Positions 4,093 through 31,464 of a stretch of DNA of 33,604 nucleotides are shown piece by piece (the first letter of the stretch is position 1; the number at the start of each line of letters is the position of its first letter). The notes under the pieces are model-generated. The model made no database searches, was not told the origin of the DNA, and saw nothing but the letters and a program-made list of their open reading frames with translations. The position numbers and the translations under genes are program-made. The DNA comes from Ruminococcus sp. (lineage in GTDB: Bacteria; Bacillota; Clostridia; Oscillospirales; Ruminococcaceae). The DNA lies in assembly GCA_022641595.1 (NCBI GenBank), contig JALCDN010000015.1, positions 1 to 33,604 of the forward strand, written 5' to 3'.

Positions 4093-4385
4093 AAAAAGTC
4101 TCTTTTATGCTAAGCATAAAAGAGACGAAGAAGCTTATAAATATCTCCGTGGTACCACTCTTAATTGACATAAAAAAATATGTCCACTCAATCGCATCAT
4201 CATACAATGTGCCTCTCTATAACGGGAGAAACCGTTCAAGCCTAATTACACTCTGATTACGAATAGTGTTTTCAGCCGACTGCTCAGGGAGGAGCTATGA
4301 CTCACGACATTCTGCTGTCTTGCACCAAACGACAGCTCTCTGAAAAAATGAAAATGAGCTTTATTTCCCATCATTGCATTTACTA
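4093..4385 (-). promoter_or_regulatory. T-box riboswitch (probably leucyl-tRNA responsive) upstream of leuA
   Basis: Minus strand carries GATGGGAAATAAAG, AGAGAGCTG...GGTGCAAGACAGC, the T-box core AAGAGTGGTACCACGGAGATA and a terminator. A candidate CUC (Leu) specifier lies in AGCTCCTCC. Confidence 0.92.
4098..4126 (-). terminator. T-box regulated terminator
   Basis: GTCTCTTTTATGCTTAGCATAAAAGAGAC followed by TTTTTTT on the minus strand. Confidence 0.9.
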
Positions 4386-4922: not shown

Positions 4923-6701
4923 CTATAATTCCGGCAGTGTCGGGATTACGGGCGGGTCATTTTTGACCTTCTTTTTTGCCTGCATATGTTCCGGAAGTTC
5001 AATTGCGTCTATTTCGTCAATGTACACCTTCTTTTTTGGGAGTGCCTCAACAGCGTGGTCAGCCGTACCCATTATTGCCTCAACGTGTTCATGCTCGTAA
5101 GTCTCAAGTTCCTCAGGATTTGCACTGTCACTTTTTGACATAATAACATTCGGAGCTTTTTTTACAAACTGTTCAAGCTCGTCAGCATTTTCCTGATCAG
5201 TGACTTTCATTTTGACCTTTGATTTTTCAGTCACGTTTTCCTGAAGTTTTGAAGCGTCAACAACATCAGTAGCGTTCATATATTTTTTGTTAAGCTCACT
5301 TGCCATATTTGGGGCAAGCTCGTTGGCATCAGCCTGTGGAGCGGCTTTCATATATTTATTTGCTTTTTTTTCCTGATGTTTTTCGAGTGCTGAAACGTCA
5401 AGGTTTGAAGCTGAGACCTCATTCATATCGTGATTCCGTGACTTTGGCTTGCTAAAAAAGTCGTTATCGTCATCATCGTCTTTGGCTTTTGAAGCGTCGC
5501 CTTGTGCTGAAGCGGTTTCAGGGGTTGCAGGTAGTGGATTTTGTGGTGTTTGCTTCACTGTCTGCGGATTTGGATTCAGTGGCTGTGCAGCAGGTGTCTG
5601 AGCTATTGGCTGAGGCATACCCATAGCATTAGGCATAGGTGAAGCTGCAATTCCCTGAAAATTCTGTGCTGTATTCTGCATATTTACAGCACCGCCGACA
5701 GCTCCGCCCTGAACCGGCACAGGCTGAACGAACTGCGGATTCTGAACAAACTGTGGCTGACCATACATTTGTGGCTGAACAGGTTGAACCGGAGTTACAC
5801 CGGCTGGATTTGGAGTAGCATTTGGCTGTTCAGCAGAAGGCTGCTGATAGATATTCATCATTTGCGGAATACCGTAAACCGGCATTCCGTTATAGTCATA
5901 GCCTATAAGCTGAGGCTGCATTATTGGTTGCTGAGCATAAACAGGCATTCCGTTATAATCGTAGCCAATAAATTGAGGCTGCATCATCGGCTGACCATAA
6001 ATAGGCGGCTGCATATAGGGCATCTGCTGAGGATTTATTTGTCCCTGTGGCATATTTGGCTGCATAGGCTGAGAATTTATTTGTCCCTGCGGCATATTTG
6101 GCTGCATAGACTGAGGATTTATTTGCCCTTGCGGCATATTTGGCTGCATAGACTGAGGATTTATTTGCCCTTGCGGCATATTTGGCTGCATAGGCTGAGG
6201 ATTTATTTGTCCCTGCGGCATATTTGGCTGCATAGGCTGAGGATTTATTTGTCCTTGCGGCATATATGGATTACGGAACATAGGTGACTGTGCATACATC
6301 TGCTGAGGATTTATAGCCATATTCTGCTGAGTGGCAGGCTGTCCCTGCAACTGAGAGTTGAACTGTCTCTGGGAATTTTGCAGACCTTGTTGTGGAACAG
6401 AAAGCTTATCGGGGTCAAGTGTTGGAATAAAAGGTTCATCAGGTTCATCATAGATAGATTCATTGAGTTCATCGGCGGTAAACATATTTGAAGCTGTTGT
6501 AGGTGCATTGTCACTGATAGTAAAAGTACCGCTTCCAATTGTAAAATTCTGATTTGAAGACGCATAGTCTTCTTCGCTTTTGTAACCGCCGCGGTCAATC
6601 TGCTCGATATTAACTTTTGACGGATCTTCGAGATTACTTCCGCAGACAACGCAGAATTTAAACTTTGTTTTATTTTCAGCCCCACATTTTGGGCAAATCA
6701 T
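4923..6701 (-). CDS. Zinc-ribbon protein with long Pro/Gln-rich tandem-repeat region
   Basis: MICPKCGAENKTKFKFCVVCGSNLED zinc ribbon (CxxC...CxxC), then ~6 copies of a 14-aa NMPQGQINPQxMQP unit and 2 copies of QPQxIGYDYNGMPVY; SD GGAGTGATTGATATG. Confidence 0.85.
   Translation of the reverse strand: MICPKCGAENKTKFKFCVVCGSNLEDPSKVNIEQIDRGGYKSEEDYASSNQNFTIGSGTFTISDNAPTTASNMFTADELNESIYDEPDEPFIPTLDPDKLSVPQQGLQNSQRQFNSQLQGQPATQQNMAINPQQMYAQSPMFRNPYMPQGQINPQPMQPNMPQGQINPQPMQPNMPQGQINPQSMQPNMPQGQINPQSMQPNMPQGQINSQPMQPNMPQGQINPQQMPYMQPPIYGQPMMQPQFIGYDYNGMPVYAQQPIMQPQLIGYDYNGMPVYGIPQMMNIYQQPSAEQPNATPNPAGVTPVQPVQPQMYGQPQFVQNPQFVQPVPVQGGAVGGAVNMQNTAQNFQGIAASPMPNAMGMPQPIAQTPAAQPLNPNPQTVKQTPQNPLPATPETASAQGDASKAKDDDDDNDFFSKPKSRNHDMNEVSASNLDVSALEKHQEKKANKYMKAAPQADANELAPNMASELNKKYMNATDVVDASKLQENVTEKSKVKMKVTDQENADELEQFVKKAPNVIMSKSDSANPEELETYEHEHVEAIMGTADHAVEALPKKKVYIDEIDAIELPEHMQAKKKVKNDPPVIPTLPEL
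6018..6267 (-). repeat. ~42-bp in-frame tandem repeat, about 6 units
   Basis: Repeated unit ...ggctgaggatttatttgtccctgcggcatatttggctgcata..., encoding MPQGQINPQ(P/S)MQPN. Confidence 0.9.
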
Positions 6702-8485: not shown

Positions 8486-9779
8486 TATTTTTTCCTTTTA
8501 ATTTGCAAAGGCAATCTTTTACCTCTCTGTACATATACAATGACCCCAACGCAATAAGCGGTCTGTTGTTATCAACAGAATCCTTATATGCTGTACAAAG
8601 TCCTTCTGAAAGTTTCTCATACGCAGTAGCATTTCTTTCATTTCTTACGAACACATCTGCAAGCTCAAAGCTGTCAAGTGCTCTTGGATTGCGTGGCATT
8701 ACCGTATAAACTCTGCAAGCAACCGGACAAAGCAGCTTAACCATAGTTTCATAGTCCTTATCAGCCATAACTCCGATAAGTACATTAACACGTTTGTCTC
8801 CGAAACGCTGACGAATACTTTCAACAGCATATTTTATTCCGTCAGGATTATGTGCACCGTCATATATAACAGTAGGTTCGAGGCTTATCGTCTCAAATCT
8901 TCCCTGCCAAAGAGCATTTTTTATTCCGTTGTAAACAGCATCGTCACTGATTTCAAGGAGCATTTCTCTGAGAAGCTCGACCGATGCAAGTACAAGTGCA
9001 GCATTTCTCGGCTGGTATGCACCGAAAAGTGATAGCTTTACATTTTTGAAGCGTCCATAACTAAGTACAATTCCATCGGACGTATTTCTGACATTTTCAA
9101 GCAGATTATAATGCACCTCAATAAACGGAGAATGCATATCTGCTGCTTTTTCGGCTATTACCTTCTCAGCCTTAAAGTCAGTTCCGCCGAAAATTACAGG
9201 ACGTCTTGCCTTTATGATTCCTGCTTTATGGCAGGCAATTTCCTCCACAGAATTTCCAAGCCAGGATAAGTGGTCGGCAGCAACATTTGTAATTATGCTG
9301 AGCAGTGGATTTGTGATAACATTTGTTGCGTCATATTTTCCGCCCATACCGCATTCTATAACAGCGGCATCGCAATGTTTCCTTTTAAAATACTCAAAAG
9401 CAGCGGCAGTCATAACTTCAAATTCGGTAGGCTTATCACGCATTTGTTCGGCAAATGAGCTTACGAAGCTGATAACCTCGGCAAATTCGTCATCGGAAAT
9501 ATTCACACCGTTAATTCTGAAGCTTTCATTGATGCGATAAATATACGGTGAGGTAAACATTCCGGTCGTATATCCCGCAGCGCTTAAAACCGATGCCAAC
9601 ATAACGCTGACCGAACCTTTTCCATTTGTTCCTGCCACATGAATACATCTGACCTCTTCCTGAGGATTACCCATAAGTTTGAGGAGTTGAAGAATTCTTT
9701 CAAGCCCTGGGTGACTTCCTCTTTGAGCAGCAATATTGATATATTCAATTGCTTTATCATAATTTATCATTTTTTGCAC
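8472..9779 (-). CDS. folC: Folylpolyglutamate synthase / dihydrofolate synthase
   Basis: HVAGTNGKGSVSVMLASVLSAAGYTTGMFTSPYIYRINESFRING... Mur ligase/FolC signature. Confidence 0.95.
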   Translation of the reverse strand: MQKMINYDKAIEYINIAAQRGSHPGLERILQLLKLMGNPQEEVRCIHVAGTNGKGSVSVMLASVLSAAGYTTGMFTSPYIYRINESFRINGVNISDDEFAEVISFVSSFAEQMRDKPTEFEVMTAAAFEYFKRKHCDAAVIECGMGGKYDATNVITNPLLSIITNVAADHLSWLGNSVEEIACHKAGIIKARRPVIFGGTDFKAEKVIAEKAADMHSPFIEVHYNLLENVRNTSDGIVLSYGRFKNVKLSLFGAYQPRNAALVLASVELLREMLLEISDDAVYNGIKNALWQGRFETISLEPTVIYDGAHNPDGIKYAVESIRQRFGDKRVNVLIGVMADKDYETMVKLLCPVACRVYTVMPRNPRALDSFELADVFVRNERNATAYEKLSEGLCTAYKDSVDNNRPLIALGSLYMYREVKDCLCKLKGKNKIGI

Positions 9780-10327
9780 ATTCTTTCGAGTTGATTTGCA
9801 AAAGCCTTATTATTCATAATCATATAGATTATGTAGAATTCGCAGACGCCCAAAATAGCACAGGACGGTATTCTGAGAAGTATAAGCTTCAGAGGATAGT
9901 GAAAATAGATATAAAATGCAATGGAGTTGATGATAAGTGAGCCGACTATTCTTGCTGCAGCAATAGAAACGGCGATATTGAGGGCTTTGTTTTCCTTGAA
10001 CATCGTATGCGAAACAATTCCTGAAATAAAGCCTACGCAGCACGCTCCAAGTGTGATTACAGGGTTTATGGCATAGCCAACCATAATACAGCCGATTATA
10101 TCGGCACAAGCCCCAACGGCAGCACCAATAAACGGTCCGAGCATGATACCTGCCATAAGGACAGTAAGTGTTTCAAAACCGAATCTGAGTGGACCTGCTG
10201 TAAATGAGAGTTGTTTACCTGCAACGCTTATAGCGATAAACACCGCCGCAACTGCAAGCACTCTGATATTGCCGAAAAGCCTTAGCTCTCCGACCGCCTG
10301 AGACCTGGAATTTTTGCTTATAAACAT
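9767..10327 (-). CDS. folT: ECF transporter S component, folate family (FolT-like)
   Basis: VAAVFIAISVAGKQLSFTAGPLRFGFETLTVLMAGIMLGPFIGAAVGACADIIGCIM; overlaps folC and follows a THF riboswitch. Confidence 0.88.
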   Translation of the reverse strand: MFISKNSRSQAVGELRLFGNIRVLAVAAVFIAISVAGKQLSFTAGPLRFGFETLTVLMAGIMLGPFIGAAVGACADIIGCIMVGYAINPVITLGACCVGFISGIVSHTMFKENKALNIAVSIAAARIVGSLIINSIAFYIYFHYPLKLILLRIPSCAILGVCEFYIIYMIMNNKAFANQLERMCKK

Positions 10328-10374: not shown

Positions 10375-10399
10375 AACTTCTTATTTATTGATGCCTTAT

Positions 10400-10498
10400 G
10401 AAGCGGGATGCAAAACACGAACCGCAAGTCATAAGACTTTTCGTTTAACCGACAACTCCCCGTTCGGTCAACACTTAACGCCCGTATTTTTACTCTTC
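10400..10498 (-). promoter_or_regulatory. Tetrahydrofolate (THF) riboswitch
   Basis: Minus strand GAAGAGTA...GGGCGTTAAGTGTTGACCGAACGGGGAGTTGTCGGTTAAACGAAAAGTC...GACTTGCGGTTCGTGTTTTGCATCCCGCTTC matches the conserved THF riboswitch core, upstream of folate transporter and folate synthase genes. Confidence 0.93.
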
Positions 10499-10503
10499 AA
10501 TAG

Positions 10504-10650
10504 ATTAAGAGCATTTCTAAAAACCATGTTTCGCAATGAAAAATTATTTATATACGGTAGCTACCGAAAAGCTGCCATCGAACTGCAATACAATTTAATG
10601 GCGTAAATAAATACTTTTTCTTATAATAGATTTTTAGAGATGCTCTTAAT
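10504..10650. repeat. 147-bp long imperfect palindrome with terminal inverted repeats (MITE-like, copy C)
   Basis: ATTAAGAGCATTTCTAAAAA ... TTTTTAGAGATGCTCTTAAT (20-bp TIR, 1 mismatch) and an inner inverted repeat GAAAAATTATTTATATAC/GTAAATAAATACTTTTTC. Confidence 0.8.
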
Positions 10651-11456: not shown

Positions 11457-11524
11457 ATATTGGCAGCTCCTTATGCAAAACGGGGCGGAAATCATCCGTC
11501 CCGTTTTCTAACGTAAGGTCACCT

Positions 11525-11602
11525 CTGAAAACCTATTTGATAAACTAAAAATCAGATATTGCATAAGTGATTTTTTTAAAGAGGTTTTTTAGAGATGCCC
11601 GT
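11525..11602. repeat. Short internally deleted member of the palindromic repeat family (copy D)
   Basis: GGTCACCTCTGAAAACC TATTTGATAAACTAAAAATCAGATA...GGTTTTTTAGAGATGCC; shares TIRs and the TTTGATnAA..AAAAATCAGATA block with copies A/B; flanked by possible CGTAA direct repeats. Confidence 0.7.
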
Positions 11603-15906: not shown

Positions 15907-16073
15907 AAAATCTCCCAACTAAACAAAGTCATTTTTCATTTATGATTTATATTATACTACAGTTTTCATTATTTTTCACACCACAATTTGTTAATTTTAT
16001 GTGTATTTTATTTTTATTTTTATTCGTTAATTGGTGTTGACGTTTTTGAAATTTTATATTATAATTATTTTGA

Positions 16074-16228
16074 GTCACATCTAAAAACTCATTCGATTAA
16101 GAAAAAATCAGGTAGGTGCGGCGGCTGCAAGTAAGCCTTCCTAAAGCGTGCTGTTGCAATTTGAGAAAGGTGGACGCTGTAAATGCCGTTCATAGCTTCT
16201 TTTCTAAAAGAAGTTTTTAGAAATACTC
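16074..16228 (+). repeat. Palindromic interspersed element, copy A (5' of GGDEF gene)
   Basis: GTCACATCTAAAAACTC...GAAGTTTTTAGAAATACTC; aligns nearly end to end with the reverse complement of 31100-31257. Confidence 0.85.
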
Positions 16229-18081
16229 ATATTACATATTTTGAAAGGAACCGCTGTTTCAGAACATTATCATTGCTGCAACCTGCATTGACTGATAACT
16301 GTTCTCAGCTTAACATTATGAATGACTACTCTTTTCCCGACGAAAGCTGCTACGTCATCGGTGAAGCAGTTATTGACAGCAGCCTGCATACTCAACGTGC
16401 CGATGAGGAATTTTTCAGCTACTTCGGAAACGATGTTATATACTCTATTCAACGTACTATTCATGACGATGATTTCCCTCGCCTTAAAGTTTTGCTCGAT
16501 AATATCGCTCCGTTTGAAATAAGAAAAATTGCTCTGCGAATGAAAGGCATAAACTCCGAGTTTCGCTGGATGTGCGTTTCAGTTTCTCTTTGTAATTCAA
16601 AAGAGCCAAACTACCGCCTGAGAATCACTGATATTCTCTCTCTTGAACAGCTCTTTTATTCTTGTCAGTATAAAATTTCCGAGTTTCATCAGATCCTTAG
16701 TATGATTGAGGAGCTTTCATTTGAATATTCATTTGAGACCGAACGTATAAAAATCTCAATGTTCGACTGTTTCCGAACCATAACGCTTACAGATGAGCCG
16801 CTTCCTCTCTGGCAGCAGAAAGCTGTCTCATCAGGCTGGATTCCGCCAAGATTCACCGAAACTTTTGACAAGCTCTGCTCCGACATAAAAAATGGTACTT
16901 ACAAATTTGAATATGAACTCGAATCTGCTCTGCTTACCGCAGGAAAATCACATGAACTCAACCTTTTTAAAGGAGTCACAAGATACGATGACCTTGAACA
17001 TAAAAAAGTTATCGGCATCATCTCTGTAATAAGTTCAAAATACAAGTCCAAAGAAACAAGCTCATCTGTTGACAACAGCTATGACTCATTATCAGGTCTG
17101 CTTTCAAAACGTGCCATAACCGAAAATGCAATGCGCATAATCGCCGCTGCACCACACTATAACGTTAATTTCGTTCTGCTCGACATTGATAACTTTACTC
17201 GTCTGAATGCTGATTATGGTCACCTTTTTGGTGACGAAGTCCTCTTTACTGTCGCAAATATTATTAAAAGTGCCATTGGCACCCGTGGCATCGCAGGCAG
17301 AATAAGCGGCGGCGGCTTTATGATCGTTATTGAGGAAACTGTTGACGAAACCGATTTACGCAGCATTCTCAGAGCTATTCGCACAAAAATAGACTGGGCT
17401 TTCTCAAACAGATTTGAAAATCTTATTCTTACCTGTTCAATGGGTATTTCAACTTACCCTGTCGACAGCAAGATTTACGACGAACTATTTATGCAAGCTG
17501 ACAAAGCTCTTTTTATTGCTCAGGAAAAAGGAAAAAACAGATATGTTATATATGACGTAAGCAAGCATGGTGCTGTTGAAATGGACACGCAGAACAAAAT
17601 TGCTTACCTGAACTACAAAAAATCAGTATCAAATCACATAAATTTCATCGGTACAATTACTGATCGTCTCGTTTCCGGAAATCTGCCTGAACTTTCACAA
17701 CTGCTCGATGAAATACGAATCCAGTTCGCTCTCGACAGTGCATACATATTCCACGGAGCTGCAATGAAACCTATTGTATCGTGCGGAAACTCTTCAGATA
17801 TTGATGCTATGTATATTTTCTCAGATTCATACAACGAGAAATTCAGCGGCGACGGCGTACTTGCCGTTGACAACATAAACGAACTCGAAGGACGTGCCGA
17901 CGAAGCTTTTACTGCATTTACATCGCAAAATATAATGGGTACGTTCCAATATCTGATTACCGACAAAAGCAAAATTATAGCACTTATTTCATTCAACTAC
18001 ATAAACCGTTTCAAAAAATGGTCCGAAACCGATGTAAATTATCTCACAATTCTCTGCCGTATTATTGCCGCCGTTCTTTAA
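16183..18081 (+). CDS. Degenerate GGDEF-domain protein with PAS-like N-terminal and additional C-terminal region
   Basis: DSLSGLLSKRAITENAMRI...LLDIDNFTRLNADYGHLFGDEVL...RISGGGFMIVIEE; GGDEF fold with SGGGF at the active-site motif. Start uncertain: 16183 lies inside repeat A; ATG 16318 is an alternative. Confidence 0.85.
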   Translation: MPFIASFLKEVFRNTHITYFERNRCFRTLSLLQPALTDNCSQLNIMNDYSFPDESCYVIGEAVIDSSLHTQRADEEFFSYFGNDVIYSIQRTIHDDDFPRLKVLLDNIAPFEIRKIALRMKGINSEFRWMCVSVSLCNSKEPNYRLRITDILSLEQLFYSCQYKISEFHQILSMIEELSFEYSFETERIKISMFDCFRTITLTDEPLPLWQQKAVSSGWIPPRFTETFDKLCSDIKNGTYKFEYELESALLTAGKSHELNLFKGVTRYDDLEHKKVIGIISVISSKYKSKETSSSVDNSYDSLSGLLSKRAITENAMRIIAAAPHYNVNFVLLDIDNFTRLNADYGHLFGDEVLFTVANIIKSAIGTRGIAGRISGGGFMIVIEETVDETDLRSILRAIRTKIDWAFSNRFENLILTCSMGISTYPVDSKIYDELFMQADKALFIAQEKGKNRYVIYDVSKHGAVEMDTQNKIAYLNYKKSVSNHINFIGTITDRLVSGNLPELSQLLDEIRIQFALDSAYIFHGAAMKPIVSCGNSSDIDAMYIFSDSYNEKFSGDGVLAVDNINELEGRADEAFTAFTSQNIMGTFQYLITDKSKIIALISFNYINRFKKWSETDVNYLTILCRIIAAVL

Positions 18082-18177: not shown

Positions 18178-21100
18178 TTAAGCAATCGGAAGTGTTGCTA
18201 CAAGACCAAGTACTTTCTGCTGAATTGTAACAGCGTCCTGTGCATTTATACCATTTCCGCTACCCTGAACATCAGAATTTGCCTTGCCCTGTGCTGAAAG
18301 TGGGAACTTTGTTGAATTTATAAGTGAACGTCTTACTGCAACAACGTCTGAAATATCAATCTTGCCATCGCAGTTTGCATCGCCATACAAACTTACTGAC
18401 TGCTGTGCTGATGTAGTTTTTGTTGTAGTTGTCATTGTAGTTGTTGAAGCTGTTGTAGCAGTTGTAACTACAGGAGGATTTGGTGAATCTGAATTGAGTC
18501 TGTAACCCATTGTTGCATATGAACCGTTTGAGAGGGTTGTATAGAATCCATTTGTATTAAGAGTTCCATCTGCATTTCTCCAGAGAGCGTCGAAATCAGA
18601 CTTCATCGGAGCAACAGAAGTGCTTATAAAGTCAGCATCTGTAAGTCCTGAGAACTTTGTACCAATCTTGGAACCGTTGTCAACCTTGGTATCAGCATCA
18701 ACCTTGTAATAGCCGCCATTGTAATACACACCGTTTGCATATGTTCCGACATACTTATCGTTGACTGCAACTGCAGAACCGCCATAGTAAGAGATAAGAT
18801 TATCAAAGTCGCAATTGTTGCAACGATATGCAGAATAGTTAGGCTTACCGTTCTTGCCGAAGTTGTTGTTTACAGCTGTACAGTTCTTTATTGAGCCCAG
18901 AAGCGGGTTGTTATTATCAGTGAAACCGCAGTGGAGGTTCTCAAATGAAAGACAGTTTTCAACAACGTGAGCTGTACCTACGCCTGCACCACCAAGCTTG
19001 AATCCGTTACCATCGCAGTCACCGTAGCCTTCACCAAATTCTGTGTAGCCGTTTCTGAAAGCGATACTGTTCTTGATGGTTACAACACCTGTAGGTCCTG
19101 TTTCGGTTTTTGCATAAAGATCCCAACCATCATCGGAGTTATTGTATGACATACAGCCATCAAATACATTGCCCTCACCACAGGTAAGCTTTGCAGCAAA
19201 ACCATCAGCATTTTCCATTGTAGCGTCATCGCAGTTATCCTTTGATGTACAGTTGTAGATGTAGTTGCCTGTAGGCCACTGAGCAATAGTGCTGTATGAA
19301 GTCTGATAACGTGAAATCTGAAGACCCGTATCCTGATTATCATTGAACACCATTCTTTCAATCTTGTTGTAATCGCCTGAAAGAAGCATTCCGTTATCGC
19401 CGGCCTTTGTGATTTCAAAGTTATAGAAGTGCCAATATGCACCGTCAAGAATAACGCCTCTGTTTGTAGGAGATGTTCCGAGTGAAGAGAAGTCCCATAC
19501 TACCTTTGCACCTGGATATGCGGAAATTGTTTTAAGTGCAGAAGCAGTACCGCTGTTGCTTTCCTCGATAACAAGTGTCTTGTCCATTTTGTATGTGCCG
19601 TTGAGAAGGTAAATCGTACCGCCTGCCTTGACAGCACTTACAGCGGAATAAACATCTGTAGGTGAATCAATTGAAGCACCTGAGCCGCCGCCGTTTGGTG
19701 AGCAGTAGATTACGTCAGAGCCTGTTACCGGCTTTGTAGGAGTTGTAGAACCTGAAGTTGTTACTGTTGTAATATGAGTTACAACAGGAGCTGTTGCAGC
19801 AGTTGTGGCAGTTGTAACCGCAGGAGTTGTAACGACCGGTGAATCGTCCTTTACAAAACCGCTTCCGATAGCGAGAATTGAAGTTTTATAACTTGTAAGA
19901 GCTGTTTTAAGAGCCTGATTTACAGCATAGCTTGCATCATCGACTGAGTTATCGAAAGTCCACTTGAAGTCGCCGCCGTCAACACGACCAGCATTTGCAG
20001 TAACCTTTGCAGGAACGTCCTGAGCGTTATCAGCAGTGTATTTGTACATTGTTGCAGAAGTATCAAAGTTGTTGTAAGTAGTGCCGCCGTTCTTTGTCTT
20101 GACTGTTGACGGAACTGATTCTGTTCTTGAAGAAGCCTCATATGCATCGAAATCAGCAGCATTTTGCTGATATGTTACAAAAGACTTCTGACCTGTCATA
20201 AAGTTTCCGAAAGACTTGATAATGCCGCCTGTTTCGCCTGAGAAAGTACCGCCTGTAGCGACATCCGAGCCTTGCTCTGAAGAAAGCATTGGATAGCCGC
20301 AGTTTCTGTAGTAGTTATTTTCAGCGAATGCTGAAGCGCCCATAGTAACACCGATACCGTACTTAGCGTTTCCGTCGAAGTAGTTGTTGTAAACATGAAC
20401 GGAACAGGTTCTGATTCTTGGGTGACGTGAATCCGAGTGATCATACCAGTTATGGTGATAAGTTATATAATTATCTGTCGATTCGCTCTTCATACCCTGA
20501 AGGTTACATTTTCCGTTATCCCAGAAGTGGTTGTAAGAGTGAGTAACATAAGTAGAAGTTTTTGTATCGAGAGCTCCGTCGCCCTTAGCCTGATCAGCAT
20601 CGCCGCCTGGATTGCCGTAGAAGAAATCACAGTTATGAACCCAGATGTGGTCATTAGCCTGTTGTAAACCGCAATCATCGCCTTCGCTGCTGTTTGTGTT
20701 CATAAAGCCTATATTTCTTACTTCAACGTCTGAGCTGTTTTTCATAACAATTCCGAAGCCGTTGAAAGTAGTATCATTGCCGATACCTTCGAGAGTAAGG
20801 CCTTCCTTGTTTGTGTCAACATAGAGGTCGCCGTTTGAATTTACGGCTGGCAGAGTAATATTGCCGATAAATCTTACACAAAGCGGACGGCTGTCCTTGC
20901 CTTTTTTGTAGCCGTTAAGAATACTCATAACGCCTGTGAATGTTTCCTCAGATTTGCCTGTATTTACTCCGAGTGAAACTGAGTCCTTGTTAGCGTCTGT
21001 AACATAAATAACTCTTGCATCGCTTTTAAGAGTACCGTCTTCGTTGTAAGCACCAGAGGAAGTGCCATTTACAAAGCCGAAGCCTGATCTATCGTGAGCT

Positions 21101-28455: not shown

Positions 28456-30204
28456 TTAATTTTTTACCGGAAGTGAATTTATTGCACCCAATACAAACTG
28501 CTGAATTGCGACTGCATCCTGAGCGTTTATACCGTCACCGTCTCCCTGAACGTCAGAAGATTTCTGACCATCGGCAGAGAGAGCATATAGAGTGCTGTTC
28601 AAAGTATAGCGTCTTACTGCAACAACGTCTGAAATGTCCACATTGCCGTCATTGTTTGCGTCGCCATAAATAACAGTATTTGTTGTTGTATTTTCAGCAG
28701 AATAGACATTAACTGAAGGATTTGAAATCTGAACAGGATCTTCTGTCATAGCGTTCTCAGTCCACTGAAGTGTGTATTTCAGACCACTGTTTTTCAGAGC
28801 CTTGAAGTCGTTGTAAGCTTCTTCGCTTAATGTATTTTCGGAAGTACCTGGCAGAGTTTCTGAAAACTCAAGGCTTATCTGACCATCCGGAGCTTTTGCA
28901 TATATAGATGTAGGGTCAGTCGGTTTATGCAGCTTGAGATTTGGGAACTGGGCTATCAAAGATTCCTCGGTAATATTTTCACTGTTTTTGTCGAAATAAA
29001 CGAACTGTGTTTTGTAGAAATAAATGTACTGTGACTTCCAATTGCCGTACTTAGGGGTTGTTACGCTATAGCTCTCATCAATTGACAGAACATTGCTGTC
29101 AGCTTTTATTTTGTCATAAATCTGTTGTCTGTTAGCGGACTCACGCAAGTCGAAGAAATAATGAGCAGAATCTTTTTTGACTATTACGTTAGAGGCAGTG
29201 ATTCCGTAATCTGCACTGCTTGTTGACAATTCAGAGCCTTCCTTAACCGTAACGGTTGCACCATTATAAGTTTCGGTCAAAAATAAAGGTGTGGCATTCT
29301 TTGCCAAAGCGATTGCTGTTGTCTGGAAGTTATTTGGAGTATAGAACTGGCTGAAATTATCACTGCCGAGTTTTTCGTTGATTACATTTTTGAGCATACT
29401 CTCTGTTGTATTTGCGACAGAATAAACATTAGAATAAGATTCATAAGTATCAGCAGGGTCGTTTGTAGTTGTAGCTACTACCCAGTTAAGCCTGTATTTA
29501 AGGCCGCTGTTTTTCAGAGCCTTGAAGTCGTTGTAAGCATCTTCGCTTAACGTGTATCCAAGAGCTCCCGGAAGTTTATCCGTCAGCTCAAGGCTTATCT
29601 GACCATCAGGTGCTTTTGTAAACATATCGTCAGGGTCAGTAGGTGTATGGAGTTTAAGATTCGGGAACTTGGCTATCAAAGATTCCTCGGTAATATTGTC
29701 ACTTGTTTTTTCAAAGTAAATGCAGCGTACGCTCCAAAGACCCGGCTTAGGTGTTGTAATGCTATAGCTCTCATCAATTGAGAGAACATTACTGTTTGCT
29801 TTGATTTTGTCATAAATCTGTTGTCTGTTGGTGGACTCACGCAAGTCAAAGAAATAGTGAGCAGAATCTTTTTTGACTATTGTGTTAGTGGCAGTGATGC
29901 CATAATCTGCACCGTTTGTTGACAAGTCTGAGCCTTCCTTAACCGTAACTGTTATGCCATGATAAGTTTCGGTCAGAAGTACAGGGGCTGCATTTTTCTT
30001 CAGAACAATAGCTGTCCTTTCAAAGCTATTTGTAGGGTAGTATTCAGTGATGCAGTCACTGCCGAATTTTTCAGCTATTACATCTTCAAACTTGCCAGTA
30101 GCATATTTATTTTGAACCATAGCTGAAGCGTAAATCGGAAAAGTTGAGACTGCACAGATACTCATAGCGAGAATTGCTGCCAAAGTTTTTTTCATTCTTT
30201 TCAT
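28456..30204 (-). CDS. Secreted dockerin protein with a tandemly duplicated ~200-aa domain of unknown function
   Basis: Signal peptide MKRMKKTLAAILAMSICAVSTFPIYASA; two copies of KFEDVIAEKFGSD...LLTETYxGxTVTVKEGSxLST...ADYGITATN...KKDSAHYFFDLRES...NRQQIYDKIK...VLSIDESYS...PTDP...KAPDGQISLE...LSEDAYNDFKALKNSGLKY; dockerin GDANNDGNVDISDVVAVRRY...GINAQDAVAIQQFVLG. Confidence 0.92.
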   Translation of the reverse strand: MKRMKKTLAAILAMSICAVSTFPIYASAMVQNKYATGKFEDVIAEKFGSDCITEYYPTNSFERTAIVLKKNAAPVLLTETYHGITVTVKEGSDLSTNGADYGITATNTIVKKDSAHYFFDLRESTNRQQIYDKIKANSNVLSIDESYSITTPKPGLWSVRCIYFEKTSDNITEESLIAKFPNLKLHTPTDPDDMFTKAPDGQISLELTDKLPGALGYTLSEDAYNDFKALKNSGLKYRLNWVVATTTNDPADTYESYSNVYSVANTTESMLKNVINEKLGSDNFSQFYTPNNFQTTAIALAKNATPLFLTETYNGATVTVKEGSELSTSSADYGITASNVIVKKDSAHYFFDLRESANRQQIYDKIKADSNVLSIDESYSVTTPKYGNWKSQYIYFYKTQFVYFDKNSENITEESLIAQFPNLKLHKPTDPTSIYAKAPDGQISLEFSETLPGTSENTLSEEAYNDFKALKNSGLKYTLQWTENAMTEDPVQISNPSVNVYSAENTTTNTVIYGDANNDGNVDISDVVAVRRYTLNSTLYALSADGQKSSDVQGDGDGINAQDAVAIQQFVLGAINSLPVKN

Positions 30205-30416: not shown

Positions 30417-31073
30417 TCAGACGATTTTTGAATAGCCGAAAGTATTGATAATTGCGTCTACGTTCTGATTTGAAGCACACATAGAGCATTCAGCAGGAGT
30501 CATAGTTTTGTATTCCGGGCAATCGTTGTCAGTAATGTCATCAACGGTAAAGACGGAATTTACAGTGATACCGCCGAAAGAAGCTATAGCACTGAAAATT
30601 GAGCAGATTCCTGCAACGTGACCTCCATAATAGCTCAGGCACTCTACTGAACGGTTTATAGTTTTGCCTGTAGACGCTGAAGAAATCAGCATAAGAACCT
30701 GTTTATTGCGTATTTCAGCCTGAAGATTATCACGGAAAATGAGTTGGTTATTGTAGTTTGTTTCCGGAGTAATAACTCTGATATCGCTGCCGGAATTTAT
30801 GCCGTTTCCGTGACGGCCGAGATTTTCTGCGAGAAAAGCTCCTACTATTTCGGTACCCTCAAGGCATATTATAGTATCAACAGGAGTTGAATGTGCATAG
30901 AACTTTGCAAGCTCTCCTGCGGCTTCACGAGCCATTCTGTAGCTTGTTTTGATAGATGTCATATCAATATAATAATTTACATGTGAGTGATTTGTTGCAA
31001 AATGGCCGGGGATAATATCTATTTTCACCCTGCCGTTAGTTTTTGATTTAATGGTAATTGCTCTTGATTCCAT
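30417..31073 (-). CDS. Orotate phosphoribosyltransferase-like PRTase-fold protein
   Basis: DTIICLEGTEIVGAFLAENL and NKQVLMLISSASTGKTINRSVECLSYYGGHVAGICSIF resemble a PRTase core; SD AAGGAG before ATG at 31073. Confidence 0.65.
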   Translation of the reverse strand: MESRAITIKSKTNGRVKIDIIPGHFATNHSHVNYYIDMTSIKTSYRMAREAAGELAKFYAHSTPVDTIICLEGTEIVGAFLAENLGRHGNGINSGSDIRVITPETNYNNQLIFRDNLQAEIRNKQVLMLISSASTGKTINRSVECLSYYGGHVAGICSIFSAIASFGGITVNSVFTVDDITDNDCPEYKTMTPAECSMCASNQNVDAIINTFGYSKIV

Positions 31074-31099
31074 TAGATTCATCTCCTTAAATACATAAT

Positions 31100-31257
31100 G
31101 GCATCTCTAAAAACTTCTTTTGAGAAAAAACAGCTATGCACGGCATCTGCTGTGTCAACCATCCCTCATAGTGCGACAGCACGCTTTCGGAAGGTTTCCT
31201 TGCAGCTGCTGCACCTATCTGATTTTTCCTTAATCAAACGAGTTTTTAGAGGTGCCC
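31100..31257 (-). repeat. Palindromic interspersed element, copy B (5' of PRTase-like gene)
   Basis: Minus strand GGGCACCTCTAAAAACTCG...GAAGTTTTTAGAGATGCC, 15/16 bp terminal pairing; homologous to 16074-16228. Confidence 0.88.
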
Positions 31258-31464
31258 ATAAATACCGTATCTCATACTATCAGCATACCAAATTCTGCTA
31301 TATTTGTCAAGCTAATATATAAATTTTGTAACGGTTCACCAATATTCGGTAATATTTTTGTGCATTTGTAAATGTTAACATTTTTCGCATTGCATTTACA
31401 AAGTAAAAAAAATGTGTTATTATATTATAAAAGAATGATATAAATATTTTTCGAGGAGGAAATA

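Follow-up and report, generated by a model that had tools for sequence, protein, structure and literature searches.

The window analysed here is the whole stretch of 33,604 nucleotides from Ruminococcus sp. contig JALCDN010000015.1. It contains two copies of a short hairpin element, on opposite strands. Copy A (16072-16228, +) is a decayed, 157-bp copy of a 158-bp hairpin MITE. It is 79% identical to the consensus of its genome, and has no target-site duplication. Its left terminal inverted repeat, GAGTCACATCTAAAAAC (16072-16088, +), is mutated from GGGCACCTCTAAAAAC; the right one is GTTTTTAGAAATACTC (16213-16228, +). Copy B (31099-31257, -) is a younger copy of the same MITE, with 4 substitutions from the consensus over model columns. 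It is flanked by a target-site duplication, which on the element strand reads TTAT both on the left (31258-31261, -) and on the right (31095-31098, -).

Within both copies lies a core hairpin, matched by a 76-nt covariance model called R2. In copy A the core is at 16116-16191 (+), with 47.4 bits, E=2.3e-14 and eight non-standard pair positions marked, and in copy B it is at 31138-31214 (-), with 74.4 bits and E=3.2e-24; the E-values of the covariance models built here are rough, and most genomes searched are drafts.

An initial annotation of this DNA, made from the letters alone, had remarked that A matches the reverse complement of B almost end to end, at some three-quarters identity. Such a match is indeed found: 16072-16228 (+) aligns end to end with 31099-31257 (-), at 79% over model columns, and an inverted-repeat search recovers a 100-bp stretch of this alignment at 83%. 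The start of the element shifts from the 16074 given earlier to 16072. GATTAAG..AAAAATC and the closing stem CTAAAAACT/AGTTTTTAG, which the annotation saw in both copies, are present in both.

Copy A also touches a gene. The longest reading of a GGDEF-domain ORF (16183-18081) has its ATG start inside copy A, and copy A makes up the 5' end of this open frame. The true start may be downstream.

The source genome (G000) measures 1.97 Mb in 82 contigs and is 81% complete. A genome search for similarity to A (E=1.8e-36) gave 40 scored copies, at 80-84% identity to A, among 101 candidates. There are at least 48 full-length copies in this genome and 25 in the sister species G020. The repeat unit is 158 bp (copies range from 157 to 159 bp), contains no transposase gene, starts with GGGCACCTCTAAAAACTC and ends with the inverted repeat of that sequence. 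The terminal inverted repeats, of about 16 bp and with sequence GGGCACCTCTAAAAAC, are found at both ends of the MITE and are degenerate in copy A.

An exact AT-rich duplication of 4 bp flanks most of the tabulated full copies, where TATA, ATAT, TTAA and TAAA are the commonest; 19 copies are without any. No copy among the 62 scored ones lies within a gene. Genome-wide, the short end motif has 126 occurrences, versus one for a reversed control motif, and an internal 21-mer used as a search pattern on genome contigs had no match. A and B are non-autonomous members of one MITE family. Its anatomy, its copies, their duplications and the matching IS ends described below are demonstrated by computation; the dispersed copies and target duplications suggest that the MITE is, or has been, mobile.

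Two further elements with ends of this kind are absent from the initial annotation. Element D (10509-10645, +) is a 137-bp MITE with ends of the same kind as A and B (GAGCATTTCTAAAAACC) and a TTAA duplication (10505-10508/10646-10649). Element C (11517-11600, +) is a shorter MITE of 84 bp, whose ends are similar (GGTCACCTCTGAAAACC..GAGATGCCC) and whose duplication is GTAA (11513-11516/11601-11604). The interiors of C and D differ from that of A and B, and the core is absent from both (no R2 match). Element D lies upstream of a THF riboswitch (10399-10499, -), with a gap of about 10 bp, and the riboswitch itself precedes an ECF transporter component (9767-10327). This places a hairpin MITE at or beside the promoter region of the riboswitch.

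A longer element that carries the end repeat of the MITE is cut off at contig ends of the source genome, 45-128 bp inside. Five left ends and six right ends of it were found, all near-identical, as expected of a multi-copy IS that breaks the assembly. The left end begins an ORF, MKVRMRSFFDEENRMVKISK. In a sister species (G093), a homologous ORF (MKVRQKSFFDEENRMEKISK / MKVRQKSFFDEENRMEKISKIGDPLE) stands behind GGGCATCTCTAAAAACC in a TTAA-flanked IS, split across both ends of one contig. The two halves of this transposase ORF score 159 and 151 bits against NF033581 (transpos_IS5_4), which has a cut-off of 140 bits, and they match PF05598 and PF01609. The transposase of locus L227 scores 272.8 bits against NF033581. 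A complete 1296-bp IS with the same ends and the same transposase type is present on a viral contig.

These IS5 insertion sequences (NF033581) share GGGCACCTCTAAAAAC ends and TTAA-type flanks with the element in the window, and their transposase consists of DUF772 and DDE_Tnp_1. The window element, in contrast, has no transposase, and the similarity between MITE and IS is confined to the terminal 16-17 bp or so. The assignment of the transposase with matching ends to IS5 (NF033581 group) is well supported. From the shared ends, such a transposase is the likely mover of the MITE in trans. DUF772 transposases of the sister species G019 and G020 were rejected as parents, having loci without matching ends, and the DDE_Tnp_1 fragments L071 and L072 in the source genome are other, broken transposases without the ends of the MITE.

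The 22-base end TTAAGGGCACCTCTAAAAACCC is present in records of Sulfurimonas, Arcobacter, Nitrosomonas, Spirochaeta, Streptococcus and Ruminococcus. These are often short TTAA-flanked MITEs with a sequence that is otherwise different. Ends GGGCACCTCTAAAAACC with TTAA flanks (L109-L226; for example L121:937-1202, L109:3384-3649 and L139:4498-4677) are carried by MITEs of 264-267 bp in Sulfurimonas and Arcobacter, and by MITEs of 180 bp in Nitrosomonas and others. Two such Campylobacterota MITEs that were folded pair end to end, with z of -10 and -16, and are unrelated in sequence to the window element.

The initial annotation held that the differences between A and B mostly keep pairing, and took this for selection on a folded hairpin as opposed to decay. 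Copy A does not bear this out. There are 22 structure pairs that differ between the copies; A leaves 14 of these unpaired, and B pairs 20 of them. A differs from the family consensus by 31 substitutions and retains 41 pairs, where the same substitutions placed at random would keep 44.1 +/- 2.0 (p=0.97). Pairs are thus broken slightly more often than by chance and, in the absence of a target-site duplication as well, A is a decayed copy. Each of the 4 substitutions of copy B from the consensus also breaks a pair. The stem that had been drawn inside the element, GTGCAGCAGC/GCTGTCGCAC, does not stand either. Covariation instead supports GTGCGGCA/TGCCGTGC, with GTGC-TGTC-GCAC as the apical hairpin.

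The copies in the genome as a whole behave similarly. Summed over all of them there are 2469 paired cells versus 2472 expected, and the terminal, recent branches of their tree show a net change of -118 pairs versus -136 +/- 8 expected, which is near neutral.

Between species the outcome is different. The structure for this test was predicted from the consensus of the source genome alone, and 12 other lineages were found by BLAST, which uses no structure model. In all 12, the number of pairs kept is above the null (p<=0.033), and compensated pairs number up to 11 versus 1.8 expected. On deep branches the net change is +6 pairs, versus -26 +/- 3 expected. With a covariance model the family is found in 57 of 125 species of the genus.

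A tree-aware null was then used on 37 lineages, with 100 null alignments that were generated on the tree and match the data in substitutions and column rates, using our own script in the manner of R-scape. For the inner helices, which exclude the terminal repeats, summed covariation is 207 versus a null of 0 +/- 20 with a maximum of 65, and 4 inner pairs are significant in a structure-restricted test. Paired cells number 1189 of 1332, where the null reaches at most 1092. The lineages later than the BLAST set were found with the structure model, and such a search is biased towards sequences that pair; neither the lineages from BLAST nor the non-canonical covariation described below is affected by this. 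In a simultaneous test of all column pairs, no single pair reaches E<0.05, so the claim of covariation rests on the structure-restricted and pair-preservation tests.

The outer stem covaries too (GGGCAYC, GGCAACC, GGTGACC, TGCAGTC). This is not evidence of folding, because both ends have to fit one transposase.

In short, the fold is kept between species with many compensatory changes beyond the tree-aware null, and resident copies are near-neutral. Selection on a folded hairpin, which failed for copy A, thereby holds at the level of the family. The pattern named in the initial annotation as speaking against it, many near-identical copies with no covariation and neutral decay, is what is found within the genome and is not what is found across genomes.

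Outside the genus, matches to the full-length model are alike in the interior only, and this interior is the core. A gapless alignment of thirteen cores, taken from different families, spans 76 columns; compensatory changes occur at 22 of the 25 pairs, and 94.8% of cells are paired. The covariation score of these 13 cores is 0.672; shuffles give 0.241, and slid versions do not exceed 0.159. The core has two similar internal loops, where CAAGG faces CGCAG and, further in, CGCAGG faces CCAAG, with a G.A pair in each. Beside the G.A pair is a non-canonical pair that is A.G in some cores and C.A in others. On trees that leave out the switching columns, this pair has switched at least 9 times at model positions 18/58 and at least 6 times at 28/48. 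Because the covariance model treats those columns as unpaired, the switching is not due to search or alignment.

Model R2 matches 110 of 394 genomes and 56 of 168 sampled genera of the order of the host, often with at least 12 matches per genome. In a phylum-wide sample there are matches in 14 of 399 genomes, 11 of these outside the order. One genome outside the order, G849, has at least 12 copies. Among plasmid and phage collections, one Paenibacillus record matches the G849-type element; judging by this single plasmid match, G849 is probably Paenibacillus-like. The element of copy B had no match in the same collections. A search of Rfam 15 at gathering and permissive thresholds gave no family at or near its gathering score, and returned chance-level microRNA matches only. 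Like the structured RNA families of Rfam 15, the core has conserved loops and compensatory changes in its stems, but it matches none of them.

The core also turns up in other contexts. In G305, G272, G219 and G155 (L346, L351, L358, L366, L380, L389, L407-L411) it is within a different, longer repeat, for which no clear terminal repeats were found at these core loci. The repeat in G305 (L407-L411) exceeds 210 bp and has GGCTTGACAGGCGCCAGCCTGCCTGC upstream of the core. In G761, G908 and G871 (L369, L371, L372, L382) the outer internal loop alone is kept, with CAAGG facing CACCGCAG or CACAGCAG, and the apical half is replaced. This is possibly a minimal or variant form of the core.

Multi-copy alignments from other genomes show elements, about 155-168 bp long, that enclose the core between ends that differ. 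These ends are AGAACCTGTCTTCATAAG in G440 (where all five aligned copies have a matching TTA or TCA flank), TAGGGCGTGTCTGAAAACTC in G849, AGGGTGTATCTGAAAAGTC in G341, AGAGCTTGTGTTCATAGGAT in G488, TAGGGAACCTCTGAATAAATGG in G496, TAATACTAATATCTATTT in G275 and TATTGCTCCACCAATTAAAC in G028, a member of the genus that also has the GGGCATC type. All 7 of 7 representative elements fold end to end, with the same strand the more stable. Strong inverted ends, meaning at least 13 of 16 matching bases, are found at 39 of 66 wide loci versus 1 of 198 control positions, and they are mostly 155-170 bp apart.

The spread of the core with other ends is thereby demonstrated by computation. Some of the different ends may in fact be a graded series among related IS5-like transposases, given that the outer arms of some are still alignable. 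At least the TAATACTAATATCTATTT and TATTGCTCCACCAATTAAAC ends look unrelated. With the same core in MITEs that have other terminal repeats, the core appears to be the part common to these elements, with ends that fit the available transposase.

The pairs of the fold do not change alike on both strands. Across lineages, Watson-Crick pairs have become G-U 58 times and A-C 31 times. The excess of G-U persists (54 versus 26) when the pairs are taken from opposite-strand folds. The mutational baseline comes from recent terminal branches, with 52 changes to G-U and 59 to A-C. Since a G-U on one strand is an A-C on the other, selection sees one fixed single strand. The simpler and likelier reading is that this strand is RNA, in which case the core would be transcribed.

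In all sets taken together, 36 copies are in the same orientation as the flanking genes and 41 in the opposite one, which is no bias. A cis-acting RNA role is therefore not visible. The interior is kept only in lineages that are still moving, is strand-specific, is common to elements with different ends and has no preferred orientation to host genes, which argues for a function for the element itself.

The best explanation, which we consider probable, is then that these are MITEs moved in trans by an IS5-type transposase, and that they share a folded single-strand core that serves their own spread and not the genes of the host. An IS5-family transposase (transpos_IS5_4 group) would recognise the terminal repeats in trans and insert the 158-bp unit into intergenic, AT-rich sites of 4 bp. 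As a folded transcript or single strand, the core might aid transposition, or make insertions harmless or tolerable. Copies once inserted would decay almost neutrally, copy A being an old one of this sort, and the full-length hairpin would be retained by those lineages that go on moving. The occurrence of a folded core across otherwise different mobile elements of Bacillota suggests that it helps the element spread, and a role in spread would seem to fit better than one in regulating neighbours.

A bolder version, which we put forward tentatively, is that the core is a small functional RNA, perhaps self-processing or binding a conserved host protein, that spreads through Bacillota as the filling of MITEs, with ends swapped per transposase. 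The result would be a mobile RNA of bacteria whose defining feature is the structured core instead of the transposase.

The folded unit might also be single-stranded DNA, a doubtful variant of the preferred explanation that is compatible with its MITE part. Here a plus-strand hairpin would be extruded at replication forks and used by a protein for transposition or replication. This would account for strand-specific structure without a gene-orientation bias, and the core sits in mobile repeats wherever copies were aligned. G.T and G.A pairs are tolerated in single-stranded DNA too, where tandem G.A pairs are stable. The matching transposases are however IS5-family DDE enzymes, and these move double-stranded DNA with target duplications.

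It is unlikely that the host has adopted the copies as terminators, RNase III sites or 5'-UTR structures, and that this use keeps the fold. The copies lie between genes, with B just upstream of the ribosome-binding site of 30417-31082, and Correia and ERIC elements are known to act in such ways (PMC10969869). Set against this are the balanced orientation to flanking genes, a terminator scan that came up empty at A and B, and the near-neutral loss of pairs in resident copies.

That same neutral rate within the source genome, copy A included, could be read as the mark of a plain MITE. Its palindrome would then be a by-product of its origin, a snap-back copy of an IS end, with copies that just decay and folding that is not selected. 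Full-length hairpins are likewise formed by MITE families of Sulfurimonas, Arcobacter and others that have the same ends but are unrelated. This reading is nonetheless quite improbable, as it does not provide for inner stems that covary between species far above the tree null, for loop sequences and a non-canonical pair conserved across families, or for a length that stays at about 155-170 bp though the ends change.

Very improbable, finally, is that template switching or repair between the arms of the quasi-palindrome, an established mutational process, keeps the pairing through mutation, with no part for selection: double changes that give Watson-Crick pairs are frequent, but such homogenisation predicts Watson-Crick pairs that are symmetric on both strands and not the 58:31 of G-U to A-C, the two internal loops remain unpaired and conserved, the A.G/C.A pair keeps switching, and recent copies show little such repair, though they are replicated alike.

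Prokaryotic MITEs are well known, including types that form hairpins (reviewed in PMC10969869). Like the element described here, they are short and non-coding, with terminal inverted repeats, target duplications and many intergenic copies, as for example QMITE2 of Coxiella burnetii (PMC5896051). Transcripts of prokaryotic MITEs have been predicted to fold into stable stem-loops (PMC10969869, PMC5896051). What differs here is that one covarying core with conserved loops is common to differing terminal repeats in many genera. Neither this element nor a structured core that covaries and is shared by MITEs with different ends is described in the open-access full-text literature searched.

The Correia, ERIC, RUP and BOX elements are likewise MITE-like intergenic hairpins. 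Their ends, hosts and target duplications differ from those of the window element, and we know of none that shares one core between different terminal repeats. Some serve as targets of RNase III or contain structured motifs (PMC10969869, PMC2649163).

It is usual to define a MITE by its ends and to take what lies between them as inert. In these elements the interior is what is conserved, and it is constrained only in lineages that are still moving. If the core acts as RNA, it would be a widespread, uncatalogued structured RNA. It would also give a concrete handle on the question of which features, apart from its ends, a non-autonomous element requires.

The window contains some other features. 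A T-box leader (Rfam RF00230, 113.6 bits) is at 4118-4383 (-). A 42-bp unit is repeated six times, head-to-tail, within an ORF at 5978-6311. Finally, two 59-bp repeats (18329-18387 and 28610-28668) are 85% identical and lie in two minus-strand ORFs of 1121 and 582 amino acids; by eye, these could be dockerin-like.
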